From contig JACCSN010000215.1 in assembly GCA_013812985.1 (NCBI GenBank), forward strand, positions 1 through 20,930: DNA of 20,930 nucleotides, given 5' to 3'. The notes under the pieces were generated by a model. The model was not told the origin of the DNA, did not search any database, and saw nothing but the letters and a program-made list of their open reading frames with translations. A program made the position numbers and the translations under genes. Each line of letters opens with the position of its first letter. Position 1 is the stretch's first letter. Below, one piece after another: positions 701-16,656 of the stretch. This stretch comes from Hyphomicrobiales bacterium. GTDB taxonomy: Bacteria; Pseudomonadota; Alphaproteobacteria; Rhizobiales; Afifellaceae.

Positions 701-1969
701 TCAGGCTGCGACGCCGCCGCTCGGGTGGAAGCGTGCAGCCCCGGATTGCTGCTCGACAAGCCGGGTTTGCACGGTCTGCCGGTCCGCCGCGATGGCGCCC
801 CAAAGGAGGCCGAACAACAAATAGACGTGGCGCCAATGGTCGATGTCGATGACGGTCGCCATGACGATATGCCCGGCGAACACGATGTAGGCGGCCTGGG
901 TCGCAACCTGGATCGGCCCGGTGCGGAACATCAGCGGGAACGCGGCCAACAGAGTCCAAACCACAAGGCCCGAGAACGCGACAAACCCAAGCCATCCGTA
1001 GGTGGTTATGGTCTTCAGCCAGATATTGTGCTCGTCCTCGCCGAACATCCTGCCGAATTCCGACGACCCGATGCCGAGCGGATGGTCCAGCATCAAATTG
1101 AACCCGAGCGCGTAGCGCTCGAAGCGCCCGAAACGGCCGCCATCGTACTCCTGGATGATCTGCGCGCGTTGCTGGAAAAGGTCCGCCACAGAGGGCAGCG
1201 AGAGCGCCGCGGCGAGCAATAAAGCGATCAAGGCTAGTCCGACCGCCGCGACGCCCACATAGCGCATTCGCGCCGAAGGGCTGCGTTCCGTCAGGAAGAG
1301 GACGATCCCCATCATCAACGCGGTGAGGACGGCGAGGCCCCACGTCGCGCGCGAGAAGGACAGGAAAATTCCGGCGAAGAGGATGAGCGCCAGCGTCCCG
1401 TTGGCGAGGGCGCCGCCAAGGCGGTGGGTCAGCGCCCGCCGGACCAGGACGATGAACGGGAAGATCAGGAAAGGGCCGAAGACGTTCGGGTCCTGAAAGC
1501 CGCCGGCGGCGCGGCCGAACTTGACGAACATCTCTCCGGTCAGCCCGAAATAGCCGAGGATGCCTAAACCGGCGGTGAGGAGGGCCGAGAAGATCCATGC
1601 GCCGACGATCGTATCAAGCCGGTCCGCGCCCTGGCCGATAAGGGCGGCGTAGAAGCAGGCGCTGAGCGCCAGGAACCCGCTCACCGCCATGTAGATGGGC
1701 TGCTCGTCGAGATCGACCGCCTGCGCGGCGGCGATGACCCCACCGGCCAGGAACAACGTCATCAGGACCACCAGCGGGCTGATCGCGCGCGGCACGCTCA
1801 AGCCGAGGATCATCCAGAGCGGGATGATCGCGGCGAGAAAATACTCATAGGGCGCCGGCTCGACGAAGACGAAGCCGCCCAGGAACACCGCGAACCACAG
1901 GATGGCGTTCGAGAAGCTTCGGGTCGGCAAGCCGGTCGGACGCGCGACCGCGGTCCCGGCGGGGTTCAA
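701..1969 (-). CDS. O-antigen ligase / Wzy-family polysaccharide polymerase
   Basis: This is a 422-residue polytopic inner-membrane protein of the O-antigen ligase/polymerase type (Wzy_C family). About ten to twelve hydrophobic segments span residues 22-395. Family features include GGFQDPNVFGPFL (157-168), SFSRATWG (204-211), the large periplasmic loop before DHPLGIGSSEF (295-305) and EHNIWLKT (313-320). In EPS loci such proteins polymerise or transfer lipid-linked repeat units in the periplasm. I chose the TTG at 1969. It overlaps the TGA of the preceding gene as TTGA, and GGAG lies 8 bases upstream. The frame could be extended to a GTG at 2113, but that would lie wholly inside the preceding gene. 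Polymerase versus ligase role cannot be told from sequence alone. Confidence 0.9.
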   Translation of the reverse strand: MNPAGTAVARPTGLPTRSFSNAILWFAVFLGGFVFVEPAPYEYFLAAIIPLWMILGLSVPRAISPLVVLMTLFLAGGVIAAAQAVDLDEQPIYMAVSGFLALSACFYAALIGQGADRLDTIVGAWIFSALLTAGLGILGYFGLTGEMFVKFGRAAGGFQDPNVFGPFLIFPFIVLVRRALTHRLGGALANGTLALILFAGIFLSFSRATWGLAVLTALMMGIVLFLTERSPSARMRYVGVAAVGLALIALLLAAALSLPSVADLFQQRAQIIQEYDGGRFGRFERYALGFNLMLDHPLGIGSSEFGRMFGEDEHNIWLKTITTYGWLGFVAFSGLVVWTLLAAFPLMFRTGPIQVATQAAYIVFAGHIVMATVIDIDHWRHVYLLFGLLWGAIAADRQTVQTRLVEQQSGAARFHPSGGVAA

Positions 1970-3528
1970 TAGGCGTTCTCCGTATTGAGCAGACGGACGG
2001 GTGTCAGGATCAGGATGTAGAGGTCGAGGAGCACGGACCAGTTCTCGATGTAGAAGAGATCGTGCTCGACCCGGCGCTCCAGCTTCTCCTGCGTGTCGGT
2101 TTCGCCGCGCCACCCGTTCACCTGGGCCCAGCCGGTTATACCGGGCTTCACCCGGTGACGGGCGAAATAGCCGTCCACCACCTGCTCATAGAGGCGGTCG
2201 GCGGCCTTTGCCTGGATGGCATGCGGCCGCGGGCCGACGAGCGACAGATCGCCCCGGACCGCGACGTTGATCAGCTGCGGCAGCTCGTCGAGGCTGGTCT
2301 TGCGGATGAAGCGGCCGACGCGGGTGATGCGGGAATCGCCGCGCGTCACCAGCTTGGCCGCGTTGGCGTCCGTCTGGTTCACATGCATCGACCGGAACTT
2401 GAAGACCTCGATCAGCTCGTTGTTGAAGCCGTAGCGCTTCTGCCGGAACAGGACGGGGCCGGGGCTGTCGAGCTTGATGGCGGCCACCACCGCGAGCATC
2501 AGAGGAACCGCCGCGACAAGCAGCAGCGCGCCGGCGATGCGGTCGAACGCCGCCTTCACCACATAGTCCCAATCGGCGATCGGCTTGTCGAACAGGTCCA
2601 GGAACGGCACCGAGCCGACATACGAATAGGAGCGTGGCCGGAAGCGCAGCTTGCTGGACCGGGCGGAAAGCCGGATGTCGACCGGCAGCACCCAGAGCTT
2701 CTTCAGAAGGCCTACGAGGCGCTGCTCGGCCGCCATCGGCAGCGCGACGATGAGCATGTCGATCTCCGCCTGACGGCCGAATTCCAGCAGCTCGTCGATA
2801 CGCCCGAGCCGCGGCAGCCCCTCGTTCAGAGCCGGGACGCGTGCGTCCTCGCGGTCGTCGAAGACGCCGCAGATGCGGATGTCGTTGGCCGGCTCCTGCC
2901 GCAGGGCATGGATCAGCTCGACCGCTTCCGGGCCGCCGCCGACGAGCACCGCGCGCCGCTCCAGGACCCCCGCCGCGGTCCACCCGGCGACCAGCCGGCT
3001 GACGATGACCCTGAGCACGATGATGGCGAAAAGGCCGGACATGAACCAGCTGGCCAGCCAGACGCGCGAGAAGTCCTCGCTCATCTTGAGGAAGAAGAGC
3101 ACCAGCGTGAAAGAGCTGAAGATCGCAGTCCACGCGCCGATGACGCGGCCGAGATCGAAAACGAAGCGCCGGTATGCGCCAACCGTATAGCCGCTGAAGC
3201 CGCCGATCAGGATTGTCGTGGCCAGGGGGAGGACAAGCGAGGCGAGAACATATCTGACGCCGATCGTCTCGGCCGGCGCGACATAGAGCCAAAGTATGAC
3301 GGCGCTGACCGTGGCGAGACAGCTGAAATCCGCCAGCCGCGCAAAGGCGGACAGGACGCCAGGGGTGATGAAGCGTCGCCGCAACGTGGCGGCGATCTGC
3401 GCGGCGCCGATGTTCAGCGGCGTTCGCGCTCCGAAAATCACCGGAGACATGGGGGATAGGCTCGATTCCGCAGCCGAGAAGACGCGGTCGCTCTCCATGA
3501 CGCTCATAGCCTTGTGTCCGCCTGCCAT
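1966..3528 (-). CDS. undecaprenyl-phosphate sugar phosphotransferase (GumD/WcaJ type)
   Basis: Priming enzyme that moves a sugar-1-phosphate from a UDP-sugar, probably glucose, to undecaprenyl phosphate at the inner membrane. The product is about 520 residues. Several membrane segments lie between residues 65 and 180, a nucleotide-binding-like middle domain starts at RRAVLVGGGPEAVELI (191-206), and a C-terminal bacterial sugar transferase domain spans about 324-515. Diagnostic motifs are FRQKRYGFN, FKFRSMHV (377-383), TSLDELPQLINV, DLSLVGPRPHA (427-437) and VKPGITGWAQVNGWRGET (460-477). It is the long, two-domain form rather than the short WbaP/ExoY core. Starts are ambiguous: TTG 3567, ATG 3528, 3507 or 3498. 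I used 3528 and the catalytic domain is unaffected. It follows the export gene and is coupled to the ligase by a 4-bp overlap. Confidence 0.92.
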   Translation of the reverse strand: MAGGHKAMSVMESDRVFSAAESSLSPMSPVIFGARTPLNIGAAQIAATLRRRFITPGVLSAFARLADFSCLATVSAVILWLYVAPAETIGVRYVLASLVLPLATTILIGGFSGYTVGAYRRFVFDLGRVIGAWTAIFSSFTLVLFFLKMSEDFSRVWLASWFMSGLFAIIVLRVIVSRLVAGWTAAGVLERRAVLVGGGPEAVELIHALRQEPANDIRICGVFDDREDARVPALNEGLPRLGRIDELLEFGRQAEIDMLIVALPMAAEQRLVGLLKKLWVLPVDIRLSARSSKLRFRPRSYSYVGSVPFLDLFDKPIADWDYVVKAAFDRIAGALLLVAAVPLMLAVVAAIKLDSPGPVLFRQKRYGFNNELIEVFKFRSMHVNQTDANAAKLVTRGDSRITRVGRFIRKTSLDELPQLINVAVRGDLSLVGPRPHAIQAKAADRLYEQVVDGYFARHRVKPGITGWAQVNGWRGETDTQEKLERRVEHDLFYIENWSVLLDLYILILTPVRLLNTENAY

Positions 3529-3612
3529 CTCTGATCCATGAGTGACGCGGGCGGGCGGCGGAATCAATTTAATCCAAACCGTAAGGTTACCGTGGAAGCC
3601 GCCGGAGAAGGC

Positions 3613-4176
3613 CTAGAACAGCCGCTCATAGACATAGATCGTATCGCCGGGGCGGATCGGCTCGGTGACGGCGATACGGCCTTCGTAGAGCTTCTCGTCG
3701 ATCGTCCGGCTCACTCGGACGACCCGCAGATTGGCGCGGTCCGTGAAGCCGCCGGCTACGGCGATCGCAGTCTCGGCCGTCATGCCGGGAACATAGGTGT
3801 ATTGGCCGGGGTTGCCGACCTCGCCGAGGGCGAAGAATGGTCGGTAGGCGGCCACCTCCACCGACACGTTCGGGTCGCGCAGGTAGGCGGCGCCCAATCT
3901 GCCGGCGATCCGTCCGGCGATTTCCTCGGTCGTGGAGCCGCGAACCGCCACGTCGCCGATGAGCGGCATGGAAATGTAGCCGGATTGGTTGATGCTGTAG
4001 AGGTTCGTGAGGCTCGCCTGCTCGAACACCACGACGCGCAGCTGATCGCCGGTGTCCAGCCGGTAGGGTCCCTCGATCATCGCCGACGCGACCGGGAGCG
4101 GCGGCCGCTCGCATCCGCCCAGGCCGGCGCCGGCCAGAGCCGCGACGACGACAGCAAGGACGCGAAATCGAATCAT
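3613..4176 (-). CDS. polysaccharide export lipoprotein (Wza/GumB family)
   Basis: Outer-membrane polysaccharide export protein of 187 residues. A signal peptide ends in a lipobox LGGC with Cys22 as the lipidated residue. The Poly_export domain follows (YRLDTGDQLRVVVFEQ at 38-53, then YSINQSGYISMPLIGDV), with a single SLBB-like segment (FFALGEVGNPGQYTYVPG) and an end typical of the family (IRPGDTIYVYERLF). The length is close to GumB-type proteins (about 210 residues) and half that of Wza (about 380), so the extra C-terminal barrel region of Wza is absent. GGGAAAG stands a few bases before the ATG. It is the first gene of the minus-strand EPS operon and would work with the divergent co-polymerase as the envelope-spanning export path. 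Confidence 0.92.
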   Translation of the reverse strand: MIRFRVLAVVVAALAGAGLGGCERPPLPVASAMIEGPYRLDTGDQLRVVVFEQASLTNLYSINQSGYISMPLIGDVAVRGSTTEEIAGRIAGRLGAAYLRDPNVSVEVAAYRPFFALGEVGNPGQYTYVPGMTAETAIAVAGGFTDRANLRVVRVSRTIDEKLYEGRIAVTEPIRPGDTIYVYERLF

Positions 4177-4198
4177 GTACTTTCCCGCTGGCGAGGAC

Positions 4199-4213
4199 GC
4201 CTGATTTGCAGGC
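4199..4213. repeat. short inverted repeat before the export gene
   Basis: GCCTG-ATTTG-CAGGC is a perfect 5-bp inverted repeat with a 5-base loop, 23 bp upstream of the export gene ATG. In the minus-strand transcript it would form a small leader hairpin, or it may be an operator. The stem is short, so chance is possible. Confidence 0.35.
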
Positions 4214-4232
4214 TCAAATTGCCGTCTTATGG

Positions 4233-4248
4233 TTAACGCTCCGCTAAT
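4233..4248 (+). promoter_or_regulatory. CtrA-like binding site A
   Basis: TTAAC-GCTCCG-CTAAT matches the alphaproteobacterial CtrA consensus TTAAC-N6-TTAAC at 8 of 10 fixed positions with the correct 6-base spacer. It lies in the divergent EPS promoter, 40 bp from a second, better copy. Binding is inferred from the motif only. Confidence 0.45.
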
Positions 4249-4330: not shown

Positions 4331-5422
4331 ATGGCGCAGATTCGTGAAACCGAGCTCGATGTCGGCGCCTTGGCCAGAGCACTGTGGCGGCGGGCGTGGC
4401 TGCTCGTGCTGCTGGCGGGCCTGGCCGCGGCCGGAACTTACTACGCGCTAGGCTTCGTGGAACCGCTCTATACCGCCGACACCAGCATCCTGATCGAGCA
4501 GCGCGAATCGCCGCTGACGCGCCCGCGTGAGGATGGGCAGAACACCACGACCGTTTTTGACGAGTCCGCGATCCAGAGCCAGGTCGAGGTGTTGCGGTCG
4601 CGCGAAATCGCCGAGGCCGTCATCGACCGGCTGGACCTGACCCGGCGGCCGCAATTCGACCCGGCGACTGCGCCCTCGCTGATCGGCTCCTTAAGCGTGC
4701 TGCTCGGCATCGAGAAACATCCGGTCGAAGCGACGATACGCCAGCGCGTGATGGACAGCTATTTCGAGCGCCTCACGGTCTACCCGGTGCAAAAATCACG
4801 CGTGATCACCGTGGAATTCTCCGCGCCCACCGCCGCGCTGGCCGCCGAGGTCGCGAACGCGGTGGCCGAAGCTTTCGCCGATTTGCAACAGGACGCCAAA
4901 CGCGAATCCGCCGTGGCGGCGACGTCCTGGCTGGAGCAGGAAATCGATCGCTTGCGTGAACGCGTGGCGGAATCGGAACAGGAGGTCGCCGATTACCGCG
5001 CCAACAACGAACTTTTCGACGTCGACAGCCAGTCCGGGAGCCTGTCGACGCAGCAGCTCGGCGACCTCAATGCGGAACTCGCGCGCGCCAGGGCCGCACG
5101 CGCCGAAGCCGAGGCCCGCGCCCAGCTGGTGGAGCAGGTGCTTGCCGAGGGAGGCTCGCTGGAGACCTCTCAGGAGGTTCTCGATTCGGCGCTGATCCAG
5201 AGGCTGCAGGAGCGTCAGGTCGCGCTTGGCGCGCAAATCGCCGAGCTGTCGACGACGCTGCTGCCGGCGCATCCGCGCATTCGCGCCCTCCAGGGGCAGC
5301 TCGCCGATCTGGAAGGGCAGATCCGCCAGGAAGGCCGCAAGGTCCAGACGTCGCTCAACACGGCGGCCAGGGTCGCGGCGGCGCGCGAGCAGTCCCTGCT
5401 GGCGAGCCTGGATGACGCCTAG
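4331..5422 (+). CDS. Wzz/GumC-like EPS co-polymerase, N-terminal part (ends at in-frame TAG)
   Basis: Polysaccharide co-polymerase that sets chain length and links the inner membrane to the export lipoprotein. The visible product is 363 residues: a cytoplasmic start, membrane segment 22-42, a Wzz domain just after it (YTADTSILIEQRE, 47-59), and a long periplasmic coiled coil of about 195-360 with the conserved LPAHPRIRALQGQL (311-324). I chose the ATG at 4331 because GGAG stands 8 bases upstream; an in-frame GTG at 4298 is less likely. The frame ends at TAG (5420-5422) in the middle of the coiled coil, but the same frame continues without any gap into the rest of the protein. As it stands this half lacks the second membrane segment. 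It is a nonsense-interrupted gene, a sequencing error, or a readthrough case. Confidence 0.8.
   Translation: MAQIRETELDVGALARALWRRAWLLVLLAGLAAAGTYYALGFVEPLYTADTSILIEQRESPLTRPREDGQNTTTVFDESAIQSQVEVLRSREIAEAVIDRLDLTRRPQFDPATAPSLIGSLSVLLGIEKHPVEATIRQRVMDSYFERLTVYPVQKSRVITVEFSAPTAALAAEVANAVAEAFADLQQDAKRESAVAATSWLEQEIDRLRERVAESEQEVADYRANNELFDVDSQSGSLSTQQLGDLNAELARARAARAEAEARAQLVEQVLAEGGSLETSQEVLDSALIQRLQERQVALGAQIAELSTTLLPAHPRIRALQGQLADLEGQIRQEGRKVQTSLNTAARVAAAREQSLLASLDDA
5420..5422 (+). other. in-frame amber codon splitting the co-polymerase gene
   Basis: TAG is codon 364 of a frame that is otherwise open from 4331 to 6730 (800 codons including the final stop). The flanking residues (SLLASLDDA before, VEVSRSGGEEIELRALEREA after) join as one continuous coiled coil as in GumC-type proteins, so no insertion or frameshift is needed to explain it. 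One substitution from CAG (Gln) or AAG (Lys) would create it. A GTG codon follows at once (5423), which could allow reinitiation. Confidence 0.85.
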
Positions 5423-6730
5423 GTGGAGGTGTCGCGCTCCGGCGGCGAAGAGATCGAGCTGCGCGCATTGGAGCGGGAGGCCGCCGCCCAGCGCGGCCTC
5501 CTGGAATCGCTGCTGGCCCGCTATCGCGAGGCGCTGGCGCGCACCGATGCCGACTACCTGCCGGCCGACGCCCGCATCATCTCGCGGGCGGTGGCGCCGG
5601 GCGAGGCCTCGTTCCCGAAACGGACGATGATGGCGACGGCCGCCGGCCTCGCCACGTTCCTGATAGCCTCTGCAATCCTGATGCTGCGGCAATTCACATC
5701 CGGCCGTGCGTTCCGTGTGATCGACTATGGGATGATGGGGGCGCCCGGGAGATGGCGCGAACCAGGGAGCGCCGCCCTGATGCCGGTCGCCTATTCCGCG
5801 CCGGAGCAGGCGTTTCGCCGCTCCCCGAAGGCTGCCGCGGTATCGAGGCGGGACTTCACGGTTCGCGACCGGACGGCGGAAGAGGCGGATGTGGTTATTG
5901 TGCCGCCTGCGCCGGCTCGGGCTTTGCATCCGGCCCCGGTTTCCATCGACCAGAGCCCGGCGCCTGATGCGACGGCCGAAACTGCCAGTGCGCCGGAGGA
6001 GGCTCCTGCTCTGGCGGACGCGCCCGCGGTCCTGACAGCCGCGACGGCGCCGGTGGACGCGCCTGCTCTGTCGGACGCCGCTCCGGCGGCGATAGCGGCC
6101 GCGGCGCTGGCGTCTGTCGCCAGCACCCCAGCCGGGGCCGACCAGCCGAATGCCGACCGGCCGGATACGGCGGAGCTTTCCGATGCTTTTGGCGATGACG
6201 GCGTTCGCGTCGCGGTGGTCGCCGGCGTGACAGGGGAGCAGGGGGCAGGGAAGATCGCCTTCGCCGCCGGCCGCCGGGCCGCCGACGCTCACCGGCTTGT
6301 CCTTCTGGATCTTGGAGCGACGCCGTCCGACGCGCTTGGCGGATACGAGCAGCCCGGTCTGGGCAACCTCCTCGCCGGCGACGCCGCCTTTGGCGAGGTC
6401 ATCCAGCGTGACGAGGAGTCGCGGGTGCATTTTATCCCGATGGGCGCGGCGGGGAAGAACGTGTCGCCGCACAGGCTGCGGGCCGTCATCGGCGCCCTCA
6501 CTCGCACCTACGACAAGGTCATCCTGGTCGCCAACTCGATGCAGGATTGGCCAGCCGAGCTACAGCCCGACCTGGCCGCCATCATCTGCCCGCCGGACGC
6601 CACGGAACAAGCGCGTAGCGAGGCGCTGGCGGCCGTGCTCGCCCGCGGGGCGGGACGCGCGCTGGTCGTGCGCTTCGGGGGCGAGCCGGCCGATGCGGAT
6701 CGACCCCAACAAACGAGCGAGGCGGCCTGA
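5423..6730 (+). CDS. EPS co-polymerase, C-terminal part with degenerate BY-kinase-like domain
   Basis: This 435-codon continuation of the co-polymerase is in the same frame as the preceding part. It holds the end of the coiled coil (residues 1-40), the conserved ADARIISRAVAPGEASFPKR segment before the membrane (48-67), the second membrane segment (about 69-90), an Ala/Pro-rich linker (about 155-250) and a P-loop-like domain (about 260-420). The kinase motifs are eroded. Walker A reads GEQGAGKI without Ser/Thr after Lys, Walker A' keeps one Asp (VLLDLGATPSD), Walker B reads KVILVANSM without Asp, and there is no C-terminal Tyr cluster. It is therefore probably a structural or regulatory pseudokinase. 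No strong ribosome site precedes the GTG at 5423. It would normally be part of the preceding protein. Confidence 0.72.
   Translation: MEVSRSGGEEIELRALEREAAAQRGLLESLLARYREALARTDADYLPADARIISRAVAPGEASFPKRTMMATAAGLATFLIASAILMLRQFTSGRAFRVIDYGMMGAPGRWREPGSAALMPVAYSAPEQAFRRSPKAAAVSRRDFTVRDRTAEEADVVIVPPAPARALHPAPVSIDQSPAPDATAETASAPEEAPALADAPAVLTAATAPVDAPALSDAAPAAIAAAALASVASTPAGADQPNADRPDTAELSDAFGDDGVRVAVVAGVTGEQGAGKIAFAAGRRAADAHRLVLLDLGATPSDALGGYEQPGLGNLLAGDAAFGEVIQRDEESRVHFIPMGAAGKNVSPHRLRAVIGALTRTYDKVILVANSMQDWPAELQPDLAAIICPPDATEQARSEALAAVLARGAGRALVVRFGGEPADADRPQQTSEAA
6005..6078 (+). repeat. 17-bp direct repeat in the Ala/Pro linker
   Basis: CCTGCTCTGGCGGACGC (6005-6021) recurs with one mismatch at 6062-6078, 57 bp (19 codons) apart and in the same frame. 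Both copies encode PALADA/PALSDA-like segments. It suggests the low-complexity linker grew by local duplication. Confidence 0.55.
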
Positions 6731-6744
6731 GCCGCGTCGCCATC

Positions 6745-7782
6745 GTGGTGCGCTATGCCCTGATACGCGCTGCGCTCGAGGCGCTTGCCGCAACACGCGC
6801 CTCTCGATGGATGCCCGCGGCGCCGGATTTTTCCGGCTTCGTCGTCACGCTGCATCATGTCCGTCCAAGAGAGCCAGGCGCCTTCGACCCAAACGGAATC
6901 CTTTCGGTCACACCGGAGTTCCTGGATTCGTTTCTGGCCCGCTTCAGATCCGCAGGCTGGCGGTTCGTCCCGGCCGCGGAACTCGTCGGTTCCGGAACTT
7001 ACCCTGACGGCGCGCGTCGGCTCGCGGTGACGCTCGACGACGGTTTCCGCGACAATCTCCAGCACGCTTTGCCGGTGTTCCGGCGCCACTCCGCACCCTT
7101 CACGATCTATGTCTGCCCCGGATTTTCCGACCGGACATCGGAGCTGTGGTGGGAGGCGCTCGAGCGCATCATCGCGGCAGCGGACGCGGTTGCCGTTGAC
7201 GGGCACGGGCCGGCGCCCAGGCTCTCCGCCCGCACGCCCGCGGAGAAACAGCGCGCGTTCCAGCTTTGGGCGAAGTGGCTGACGACGGAGGCCGACGAGA
7301 CCCGTCAGCGCGTCGCGATCCGGGCGCTTGCCGCCGCCTATGGCCTCAATCTGGCTGAACTCGCCCGCGAGCTGGTCATGGACTGGGACGAGGTTCGCGC
7401 CGTCGCCGCCGATCCGCTTTGCGCGATCGGCGCTCATACGATGACGCACCCGGCGCTGGCGCGCCTCCCGCCCGATGCAGCGCTTCGCCAGATGCGCGAG
7501 AGCGCCGACCGGATCGAAGCGGAGATCGGCGTGCGCCCGCGAACGATCGCCTTCCCGTATGGCTATCCGGCCGCGGCTTCGGCCCGCGAGGCGCGGCTCG
7601 CCGAGGAGGCGGGCTTTGCCGCCTCGTTCACCACGCAGCCGGGCTACATCTCGACACGAGGGAGCCGCCACGCGCTTCCGCGCGTCTCGGTGAACGGGCT
7701 CTACCAGGAGCTCCGCTATCTGGATGCGCTGCTCACCCCTGGCCTGTGGCGGCTCAGGAACCGCATCCGCTCACGGCGCTAG
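6745..7782 (+). CDS. polysaccharide deacetylase (NodB-homology) family protein
   Basis: This 345-residue carbohydrate-esterase-4-type protein probably removes acetyl groups from amino sugars in the exported or lipid-linked polymer. NodB motif 1 is VTLDDGF with Asp98 and Asp99, motif 2 is HTMTH with metal-binding His231 and His235, and FPYG (270-273) is motif 3. A stretch of about 75 residues (130-215) is inserted between motifs 1 and 2. The N-terminus has an amphipathic helix rather than a clear signal peptide. The start is one of two adjacent GTG codons (6745 or 6748), 14 bp after the preceding stop, with no strong ribosome site. It is probably cotranscribed with the co-polymerase. Its stop codon overlaps that of the convergent DUF2842 gene. 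The substrate is unknown. Confidence 0.87.
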   Translation: MVRYALIRAALEALAATRASRWMPAAPDFSGFVVTLHHVRPREPGAFDPNGILSVTPEFLDSFLARFRSAGWRFVPAAELVGSGTYPDGARRLAVTLDDGFRDNLQHALPVFRRHSAPFTIYVCPGFSDRTSELWWEALERIIAAADAVAVDGHGPAPRLSARTPAEKQRAFQLWAKWLTTEADETRQRVAIRALAAAYGLNLAELARELVMDWDEVRAVAADPLCAIGAHTMTHPALARLPPDAALRQMRESADRIEAEIGVRPRTIAFPYGYPAAASAREARLAEEAGFAASFTTQPGYISTRGSRHALPRVSVNGLYQELRYLDALLTPGLWRLRNRIRSRR

Positions 7783-10987: not shown

Positions 10988-11694
10988 TGGCGATCCAGGC
11001 GCCCTCGCAGCTCCCCTTGGCGCTCGCCCACCCTCCGCAACATGGACGTGACAGTTTTCTTCCGGGCAGGTCGAACCGCGCCGCCCTCGCTTTGGTTGAA
11101 AGGTGGCCGGACTGGCCGGCGCCGATCGCGCTCCTCAGCGGCCCGGCCGGCTCCGGCAAGACGCATCTGGCGCACATCTGGGCGGAGCGATCGGGGGCTC
11201 GCCTGATAGCGGCGACGGATCTCGCTTTCCCCGGGCGGGTCCAACTAGCGCGCGGAGAATGGATCGCGATGGAAGATGTCGCGCCAGAAGATGTCCCGGA
11301 GGCGGAGCTCTTCCATCTCATCAACAGCGCCCGGGAGAGCGGGGCGGGGCTCCTCATCACCTCCCGCGCCGCGGCTCCCACTTGGCGGATCGCTCTTTCG
11401 GATCTCCGCTCGCGGCTGCGCTTGGCGGCGCCGGCGGCGCTGGAGGCGCCCGACGACGACCTGCTGCGTCAAGTGCTCGTCAAGCTCTTCGCCGACCGCC
11501 AGCTCGTGGTGGAGCGGCCGGTGATCGACTTTCTCCTGGTCCGGATGGAGCGGTCGCTCAGCGCCGCCGGCCAGCTTGTGGAGGCCCTCGATCGCGAGGC
11601 CTTGGCGCAAGCCGGCCCGATCACCCGGCCGATGGCGGCGCGGATACTTTCCGCGGCTGCGGATTCCGCCGCCGAGTTTGCGGTTCGCAAATAG
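10987..11694 (+). CDS. hdaA: HdaA-like DnaA regulatory protein (AAA+)
   Basis: Cytoplasmic AAA+ protein of 235 residues related to the DnaA ATPase domain. With the DNA polymerase sliding clamp, Hda proteins stimulate ATP hydrolysis by DnaA and so prevent over-initiation. The N-terminal QLPLAL (8-13) is a clamp-binding motif in the expected place. Walker A is GPAGSGKT (52-59), and the Walker B region ([12 protein letters not shown]) has lost part of the classic acidic pair, as in many alphaproteobacterial homologues. No DnaA DNA-binding domain is present. In sphingomonads and Caulobacter this gene usually follows a permease gene and precedes or lies near ppk, as here. It overlaps the permease stop by one base. 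Confidence 0.88.
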
Positions 11695-11756
11695 GTCGTC
11701 ATCATTATGTACCCAAAGCGCTTCGAGAATTGATCGCCGCTACGGGTGAGACTGTG

Positions 11757-15459: not shown

Positions 15460-16656
15460 TCACTCCGCGGCGATCCGCTCCGGCGCTTCGAGCGCGACCG
15501 CGACCACGCCCCGCGGCGACATCGACAGCGCCAGCTCGCCGCGTTTCAAGGCCAGCGCCTGCTCGCCGAACAGCTGCCGCCGCCAACCCTTCAGCGCTTG
15601 CACATCGGCGCGATCATCGGCGGCGATGGCTTCAAGATCGTCCGCATTGGCGATCACGCGGGCTGCTACGGCATGGTCCTCGGCAACCATCTTCAGGAGC
15701 ACTTTCAGGAGTTCGGCGGCCGCGCCGGCATGTTCCGAGACCGGTCGTTGGCGTGGCACGCTGGGCAGGGCGCTTTCCGCCAGGGCGAACACCTCCTCCA
15801 CGGCGCCCAGGATTCCCCGAGCGAGGCTGGAGCGTTCGAAGCCGCGCGGGATCGCCCTGAGCCGCCCAAGCGCTTCCGCGTCGCGCGGCTGCTGGAGCGC
15901 GACCTCGTAAAGCGCGTCGTCCTTCAGCACCCGGCCGCGCGGCACGTCGCGCTCCTGGGCCTCCCGCTCGCGCCAGGCGGCGAGCGCCTGCAGGATGGCG
16001 AGCTGCCGCGGCTTCTTCACCCGCATTTTCAGCCGCTGCCAGGCTTCCTCCGGCTCCGTCCGGTAGGTCCGCGGATCGGAGAGAACCGCCATCTCCTCCG
16101 CCACCCATTCGGTGCGCCCCTGTTCGGCCAGCTGCGCGGCGAGCGAAAGGTAGACGTCGCGCAGATGCGTCACGTCGGCGATGGCATAGGCGATCTGCTT
16201 GGCGTTGAGCGGTCGGCGCGACCAGTCGGTGAAGCGCGAGGTCTTGTCGATCTGCTGACCGGCGATGCGCGACACGAGCTGGTCGTAACTCACCTGGTCG
16301 CCGTAGCCGCAGACCATTGCGGCAATCTGAGTGTCGAAGAGCGGCCGCGGCACGGCCCCGGCCTGCTTGACGAAGATTTCGATGTCCTGACGGGCGGCGT
16401 GAAAGACCTTGAGCACGCCTTCGTCGGCCATCAGCCGGTAGAACGGGTCCAAGTCCAGGCCCGCCGCGAGCGGGTCGATGATGGCCGCCTCGTCCGGCCC
16501 GGCCATCTGGATGAGGCAGAGTTGCGCCCAGAACGTGCTCTCGCGCATGAACTCCGTGTCAACCGTGATGAAGGGAGTTTTGGAGAGCCTACCGCAGAAG
16601 CCGACAAGCGCGTCACTGTCTGTGATGATCGTGTGTTCGTGGATGTTCGATTCCAT
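15460..16656 (-). CDS. rnd: ribonuclease D
   Basis: 3'-5' exoribonuclease that trims the 3' ends of tRNA precursors and other small RNAs. The product is 398 residues. The DEDDy exonuclease domain has Asp33 and Glu35 (VDTEFMRE), Asp91 (HAARQDIE), then Tyr157 and Asp161 (YAIADVTHL). An HRDC domain follows (about 208-290), with a C-terminal helical region. DTEFMRESTFWAQLCLIQ at the N-terminus is typical of RNase D. The ATG at 16656 has no strong ribosome site and may be at or next to the transcription start. It is convergent with ppx with no spacer between the stops. Confidence 0.95.
   Translation of the reverse strand: MESNIHEHTIITDSDALVGFCGRLSKTPFITVDTEFMRESTFWAQLCLIQMAGPDEAAIIDPLAAGLDLDPFYRLMADEGVLKVFHAARQDIEIFVKQAGAVPRPLFDTQIAAMVCGYGDQVSYDQLVSRIAGQQIDKTSRFTDWSRRPLNAKQIAYAIADVTHLRDVYLSLAAQLAEQGRTEWVAEEMAVLSDPRTYRTEPEEAWQRLKMRVKKPRQLAILQALAAWREREAQERDVPRGRVLKDDALYEVALQQPRDAEALGRLRAIPRGFERSSLARGILGAVEEVFALAESALPSVPRQRPVSEHAGAAAELLKVLLKMVAEDHAVAARVIANADDLEAIAADDRADVQALKGWRRQLFGEQALALKRGELALSMSPRGVVAVALEAPERIAAE

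Follow-up and report, generated by a model that had tools for sequence, protein, structure and literature searches.

Polysaccharide co-polymerases of the PCP-2 class, such as Wzc, ExoP and PssP, combine a membrane helix, a Wzz domain, a helical periplasmic part, a second membrane helix and a cytoplasmic kinase-fold domain, and their systems include Wzy-, WbaP- and Wza-like neighbour genes. In R. leguminosarum, deletion of the co-polymerase PssP abolishes exopolysaccharide (EPS), and shortening of its C terminus changes chain length (PMC5748678). Fusions of PCP-2 proteins to BY pseudokinases (SMc01795 and others) lack the Walker A Lys-Ser/Thr and the Tyr-rich tail, as described in PMC12004946. 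The locus analysed here resembles the PCP-2 systems in both domain layout and neighbour genes, and differs from TIGR01005-like PCP-2 proteins in that its near-identical intact relative scores below the curated cut-off, its kinase domain is degenerate and this copy is interrupted. Natural and laboratory loss-of-function alleles of polysaccharide genes exist in which a single nonsense change breaks an otherwise intact gene; the change at this locus is of the same kind and has been seen on one contig. A literature search gave no direct precedent for a natural premature stop in genes of this type in those parts of the sources that were accessible.

The window (the whole stretch of DNA analysed, 20,930 nucleotides) carries a frame on the + strand from ATG 4331 to TGA 6728–6730, in which the TAG at 5420–5422, codon 364, is the sole in-frame stop in 799 codons, confirming the original prediction of a single stop in a frame open from 4331 to 6730. 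The codon directly after the stop is GTG (5423). The features of the polysaccharide cluster are as follows.

701–2113, − strand: Wzy_C/O-antigen-ligase-like protein, a probable polymerase
1966–3567, − strand: WbaP-like initiating sugar transferase (Bac_transf and CoA_binding_3)
3613–4176, − strand: Wza-like polysaccharide export protein (Poly_export and SLBB), divergent from the co-polymerase
4331–5419, + strand: N-terminal 363 codons of the PCP-2 co-polymerase, with membrane helix 1 (about residues 22–41), the Wzz domain and most of the periplasmic helical region
5420–5422, + strand: in-frame TAG, codon 364, within predicted helix 315–406
5423–6730, + strand: remainder of the frame, with the end of the return helix, membrane helix 2 (431–457), a disordered linker (about 468–609) and the kinase-fold domain (about 611–790)
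6745–7782, + strand: polysaccharide deacetylase (with a PgaB-like stretch below the NCBIfam cut-off), ending in TAG

The deacetylase is followed by genes for CtaA, a CDP-alcohol phosphatidyltransferase, an AI-2E-type transporter, HdaA, PPK and PPX. This gene order is kept in two related loci (L001 and L050) and largely kept in four more (L051–L054); the 2OG oxygenase, Ada and PAS genes of the window were matched in none of these six loci. An ORF on the + strand at 3538–4236 runs antisense to the Wza-like gene, and its initial reading as a gene was discarded. A plasmid origin of the contig was also discarded, since the best-ranked plasmid matches, at about 72% identity, span 9% of the window. 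The only tRNA of the window, a tRNA-Pro (GGG) at 579–655 (− strand), lies beside the end of the Wzy-like gene.

Long ORFs alone are weak proof of a single gene here, given the GC content of the window (60–71%) and an antisense ORF of 558 amino acids that also covers the TAG site. The two sides of the stop are instead assigned to one gene by homology. The upstream and downstream parts matched TIGR01005 in order (positions 3–360 and 372–523, respectively), and a query with X at the stop retrieved an intact protein (P0002; 799 amino acids, from an NCBI-sourced contig of 9175 bases, in a cluster of 3 member sequences) that matches the interrupted frame at every position but the stop and residues 517 and 764. 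The upstream part exceeds the Pfam Wzz cut-off (50.4 bits, and 47.9 for P0002, versus 25.5), and the Pfam GNVR gathering cut-off is missed by both the downstream part (21.7 bits) and P0002 (21.1, versus 27.7). Full-length P0002 (301 bits) and a second protein, P0057 (310.8 bits), also fall below the curated TIGR01005 cut-off of 411.7; judged by these scores, P0002 is best described as a relative of that family and not a formal member. Named relatives belong to the Hyphomicrobiales (Propylenella, Faunimonas, Afifella and an Afifellaceae MAG), and the best places in the closest genomes searched have 59–62% identity. At that distance the genomes searched do not include the species of the window, which probably belongs near Afifellaceae.

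An AlphaFold2 model of P0002 (76 sequences; mean pLDDT, 81.7; pTM, 0.51) has helices at residues 22–41, 168–225, 238–273, 315–406 and 431–457, and hydropathy peaks lie at 25–43 and 434–452. P0002 thus has two membrane helices around a long helical periplasmic part, and the second helix of the window's frame lies beyond the stop. Residue 364 falls inside the long periplasmic helix 315–406, which leads back to membrane helix 431–457, and is 67 residues ahead of the latter. Residues of about 468–609 are modelled with low confidence, and the kinase-fold domain comes next. Foldseek placed Wzc first (structures such as 9r68 and 7nhr; E = 3.9e-18, probability 1.00), with a whole-chain TM of just 0.25/0.30 and an rmsd of 54.9, the domain arrangement being unmatched, and aligned the last domain with the VpsO kinase (6u1q_B; TMt 0.73, rmsd 2.7). 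The TIGR01005 match, P0002 and the predicted structure together support the original prediction of a GumC-like co-polymerase intact on either side of the stop, and the gene is a Wzc/ExoP-type PCP-2 co-polymerase fused to a catalytically degenerate tyrosine-kinase domain.

The cytoplasmic domain with the BY-kinase fold occupies 6161–6700 of the window (residues of about 611–790) as a fused pseudokinase. None of the 76 aligned sequences has a Gly-Lys-Ser/Thr in the Walker A stretch, and none has a Tyr-rich C-terminal tail (0–2 Tyr in the last 30 residues). Judged from these motifs, the last domain is a pseudokinase and lacks the marks of an active BY kinase. Its likeness to SMc01795 is one of description, resting on the Walker A Lys-Ser/Thr and the tail as reported in PMC12004946, where such fusions are already described; we therefore dropped the idea of a novel PCP–pseudokinase fusion.

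The gene has been under long-term constraint on both sides of the stop. Compared with L001, dN/dS was 0.19/1.13 before the stop and 0.24/1.21 for residues 365–470, and compared with L050 the values were 0.19/0.90 and 0.23/1.01; the ratios are similar on either side and, with dS near saturation, show constraint over the long term and not events since the stop arose. The linker (dN 0.75–0.85) and the last domain (dN 0.44) are less conserved. Together with the two other residue differences from P0002, these values bear out the expectation of little decay.

We then asked how widely the stop is distributed, using six-frame genome searches in which stops were read through and counted. In the order sample, 130 of 199 genomes matched at E ≤ 1e-60, at one place each and with every place spanning codon 364; none of these 130 contained an internal stop at that level of match, and the other 69 genomes had no match at it. 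A family set of 11 genomes, overlapping with the order set, likewise gave no internal stop in the ten genomes with a place across codon 364, the eleventh (G007) having only a weak partial match that ends at residue 240. The conservation of TAG in relatives that would mark programmed readthrough was thus absent (0/130 in the order, 0/10 in the family). Among gene-called proteins of at least 0.55 of the query length, the residue aligned to codon 364 in the best 120 of 305 matches was Lys in 114, Met in 4, Thr in 1 and Ser in 1, which shows that the site is conserved and not that the stop is absent, because gene-called proteins can hold no stop.

Protein searches found the 363-amino-acid product on one contig only, that of the window. 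A search with the N-terminal part, covering proteins of about 200–635 amino acids, returned 51 proteins, and 40 fragments picked by eye (the window's own included) were compared with P0002: their breaks are scattered and many end in tails without homology. In one of them (P0137, 42% identical) homology breaks off at codon 364 and 20 further residues without homology follow; in another (P0141) it breaks off at 371, with about 60 such residues following. The frame is presumably shifted in both, and, with breaks scattered over the 39 fragments besides the window's own, a break near codon 364 can be chance. Many relatives from the 'ena' source (P0124, P0126, P0128, P0135, P0149 and others) have breaks at scattered points followed by non-homologous tails and, judged from the proteins, look like assembly frameshift errors. 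In two further pairs (P0125 and P0093, on contigs of 14783 bases; P0126 and P0162, on contigs of 92513 bases), the co-polymerase appears as two proteins, split away from codon 364. With the allele on one contig only and no internal stop in any genome place across the site, a shared or programmed stop was rejected. Within the set searched, the stop is unique to this one copy of a conserved co-polymerase gene that is otherwise intact, and a recent mutation—which a TAG conserved across species would have contradicted—survives as an explanation.

A one-base sequencing or assembly error, with the gene intact in the cell, accounts for many of the same observations and remains a serious candidate, if one we place short of even. 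An allele found on one contig, in one member, fits a one-off error equally well; the near-identical P0002 is intact, no other decay was seen, and by our own rough estimate a consensus error that creates a stop has about the same prior probability as a genuine nonsense allele. Against an error stand the neighbours: 11 of them (the named genes and an RNase D-like gene) align with relatives without a frameshift or early stop, their ends lying within a few residues of those of at least one relative, so that the contig does not look error-rich. In this comparison the RNase D-like gene was set against L051 alone, and single relatives can differ more (78 residues for the CDP-alcohol enzyme versus L053). 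It replaces a stop count over 14 genes (6230 codons, one internal stop) as the test of the neighbours, the count being partly circular in that the genes were chosen as open frames. Ahead of its Pfam domains, the PPK frame stays open for about 200 codons (11103–11702 of the window), overlapping HdaA in another frame; this stretch aligns with the same frame of L001 and L050 and is probably a GC-rich artefact.

Readthrough or suppression of the TAG, including by pyrrolysine or an amber suppressor tRNA, would fit the conserved downstream frame. TAG terminates on this contig, however, as HdaA ends in TAG at exactly the same place as in L001 and L050; it ends so in three relatives, and the deacetylase, too, has a terminal TAG, a few residues at most from where its relatives end. 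PylS exceeded the cut-off in none of the 11 family genomes, all of which gave weak sub-threshold matches (ring controls: matches in 13/14, with 1 over the cut-off), and the single tRNA of the window is the tRNA-Pro (GGG). We regard suppression, one of the meanings proposed earlier, as very unlikely.

Reinitiation at the GTG directly after the stop, or at GTG 5429, could yield two chains that assemble into a split protein, but the predicted anti-Shine–Dalgarno pairing at GTG 5423 (−3.1 kcal/mol) is close to the background mean (−2.9; 5th percentile, −6.8) and the gene's own start reaches −6.4. Pairing upstream of GTG 5429 is moderate (−5.8 kcal/mol) but abuts the start codon. A missing signal is weak evidence here, because other starts, as taken, also lack one (deacetylase, −1.9; PPX, +0.4; WbaP-like, −3.1 kcal/mol). 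The second chain would begin within helix 315–406, none of the relatives searched is divided by a stop at codon 364, and a search with the 435-amino-acid part found no separate product of the window's contig among the best 120 of 161 matches. The proposed restart in mid-helix at a GTG without a Shine–Dalgarno signal is accordingly very unlikely.

Polysaccharide genes are known to be subject to phase variation, reportedly including PNAG in Staphylococcus, and an on/off variant had been suggested for this gene. Tandem Repeats Finder gave three rows in the window (two at 11413–11450 and one at 15603–15627), none near 5420, and a substitution has no ready way back; such a switch is hardly credible here. 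Rfam searches at gathering thresholds found only the tRNA in the window and no RNA element at the TAG site.

Of the meanings first listed for the stop, a recent nonsense mutation and a sequence error survive. We lean towards a nonsense allele that arose recently in a natural population, at somewhat better than even confidence. One nucleotide change would have created the stop at codon 364 of an intact Wzc/ExoP-type gene, so that the ribosome would stop within the long periplasmic helix without reaching membrane helix 2 or the cytoplasmic pseudokinase domain. The truncated protein would be unable to build the usual two-helix oligomer in the membrane, and the cluster's polysaccharide would not be normally polymerised or exported. 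Presence of the stop in living cells, its origin in one substitution, a non-functional product and loss of this polysaccharide are all inferences. From the predicted topology, the 363-residue product is expected to be null and not to shift chain length, as it lacks the second membrane helix. In 9 of the 11 family genomes an additional co-polymerase match, distant and in some cases partial, is present, so that the strain may still make other polysaccharides; the 'EPS-negative strain' of the original prediction is too strong. A maintained polymorphism, in which polysaccharide-minus cells live beside intact P0002-type kin in one habitat, where phage pressure or a cheater's advantage, for instance, might sustain them, seems improbable; if true, the allele would be at appreciable frequency and not a one-off.

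Either outcome, nonsense allele or one-base error, is ordinary, and knowledge of co-polymerases and of TAG is unchanged. For annotation, the 363-amino-acid product should be treated as a truncated co-polymerase and not as a short family member. If the nonsense allele is real, it would be a naturally occurring null in a gene for polysaccharide assembly, beside an intact, near-identical allele, and a small case of standing loss-of-function variation in an uncharacterised alphaproteobacterial lineage.
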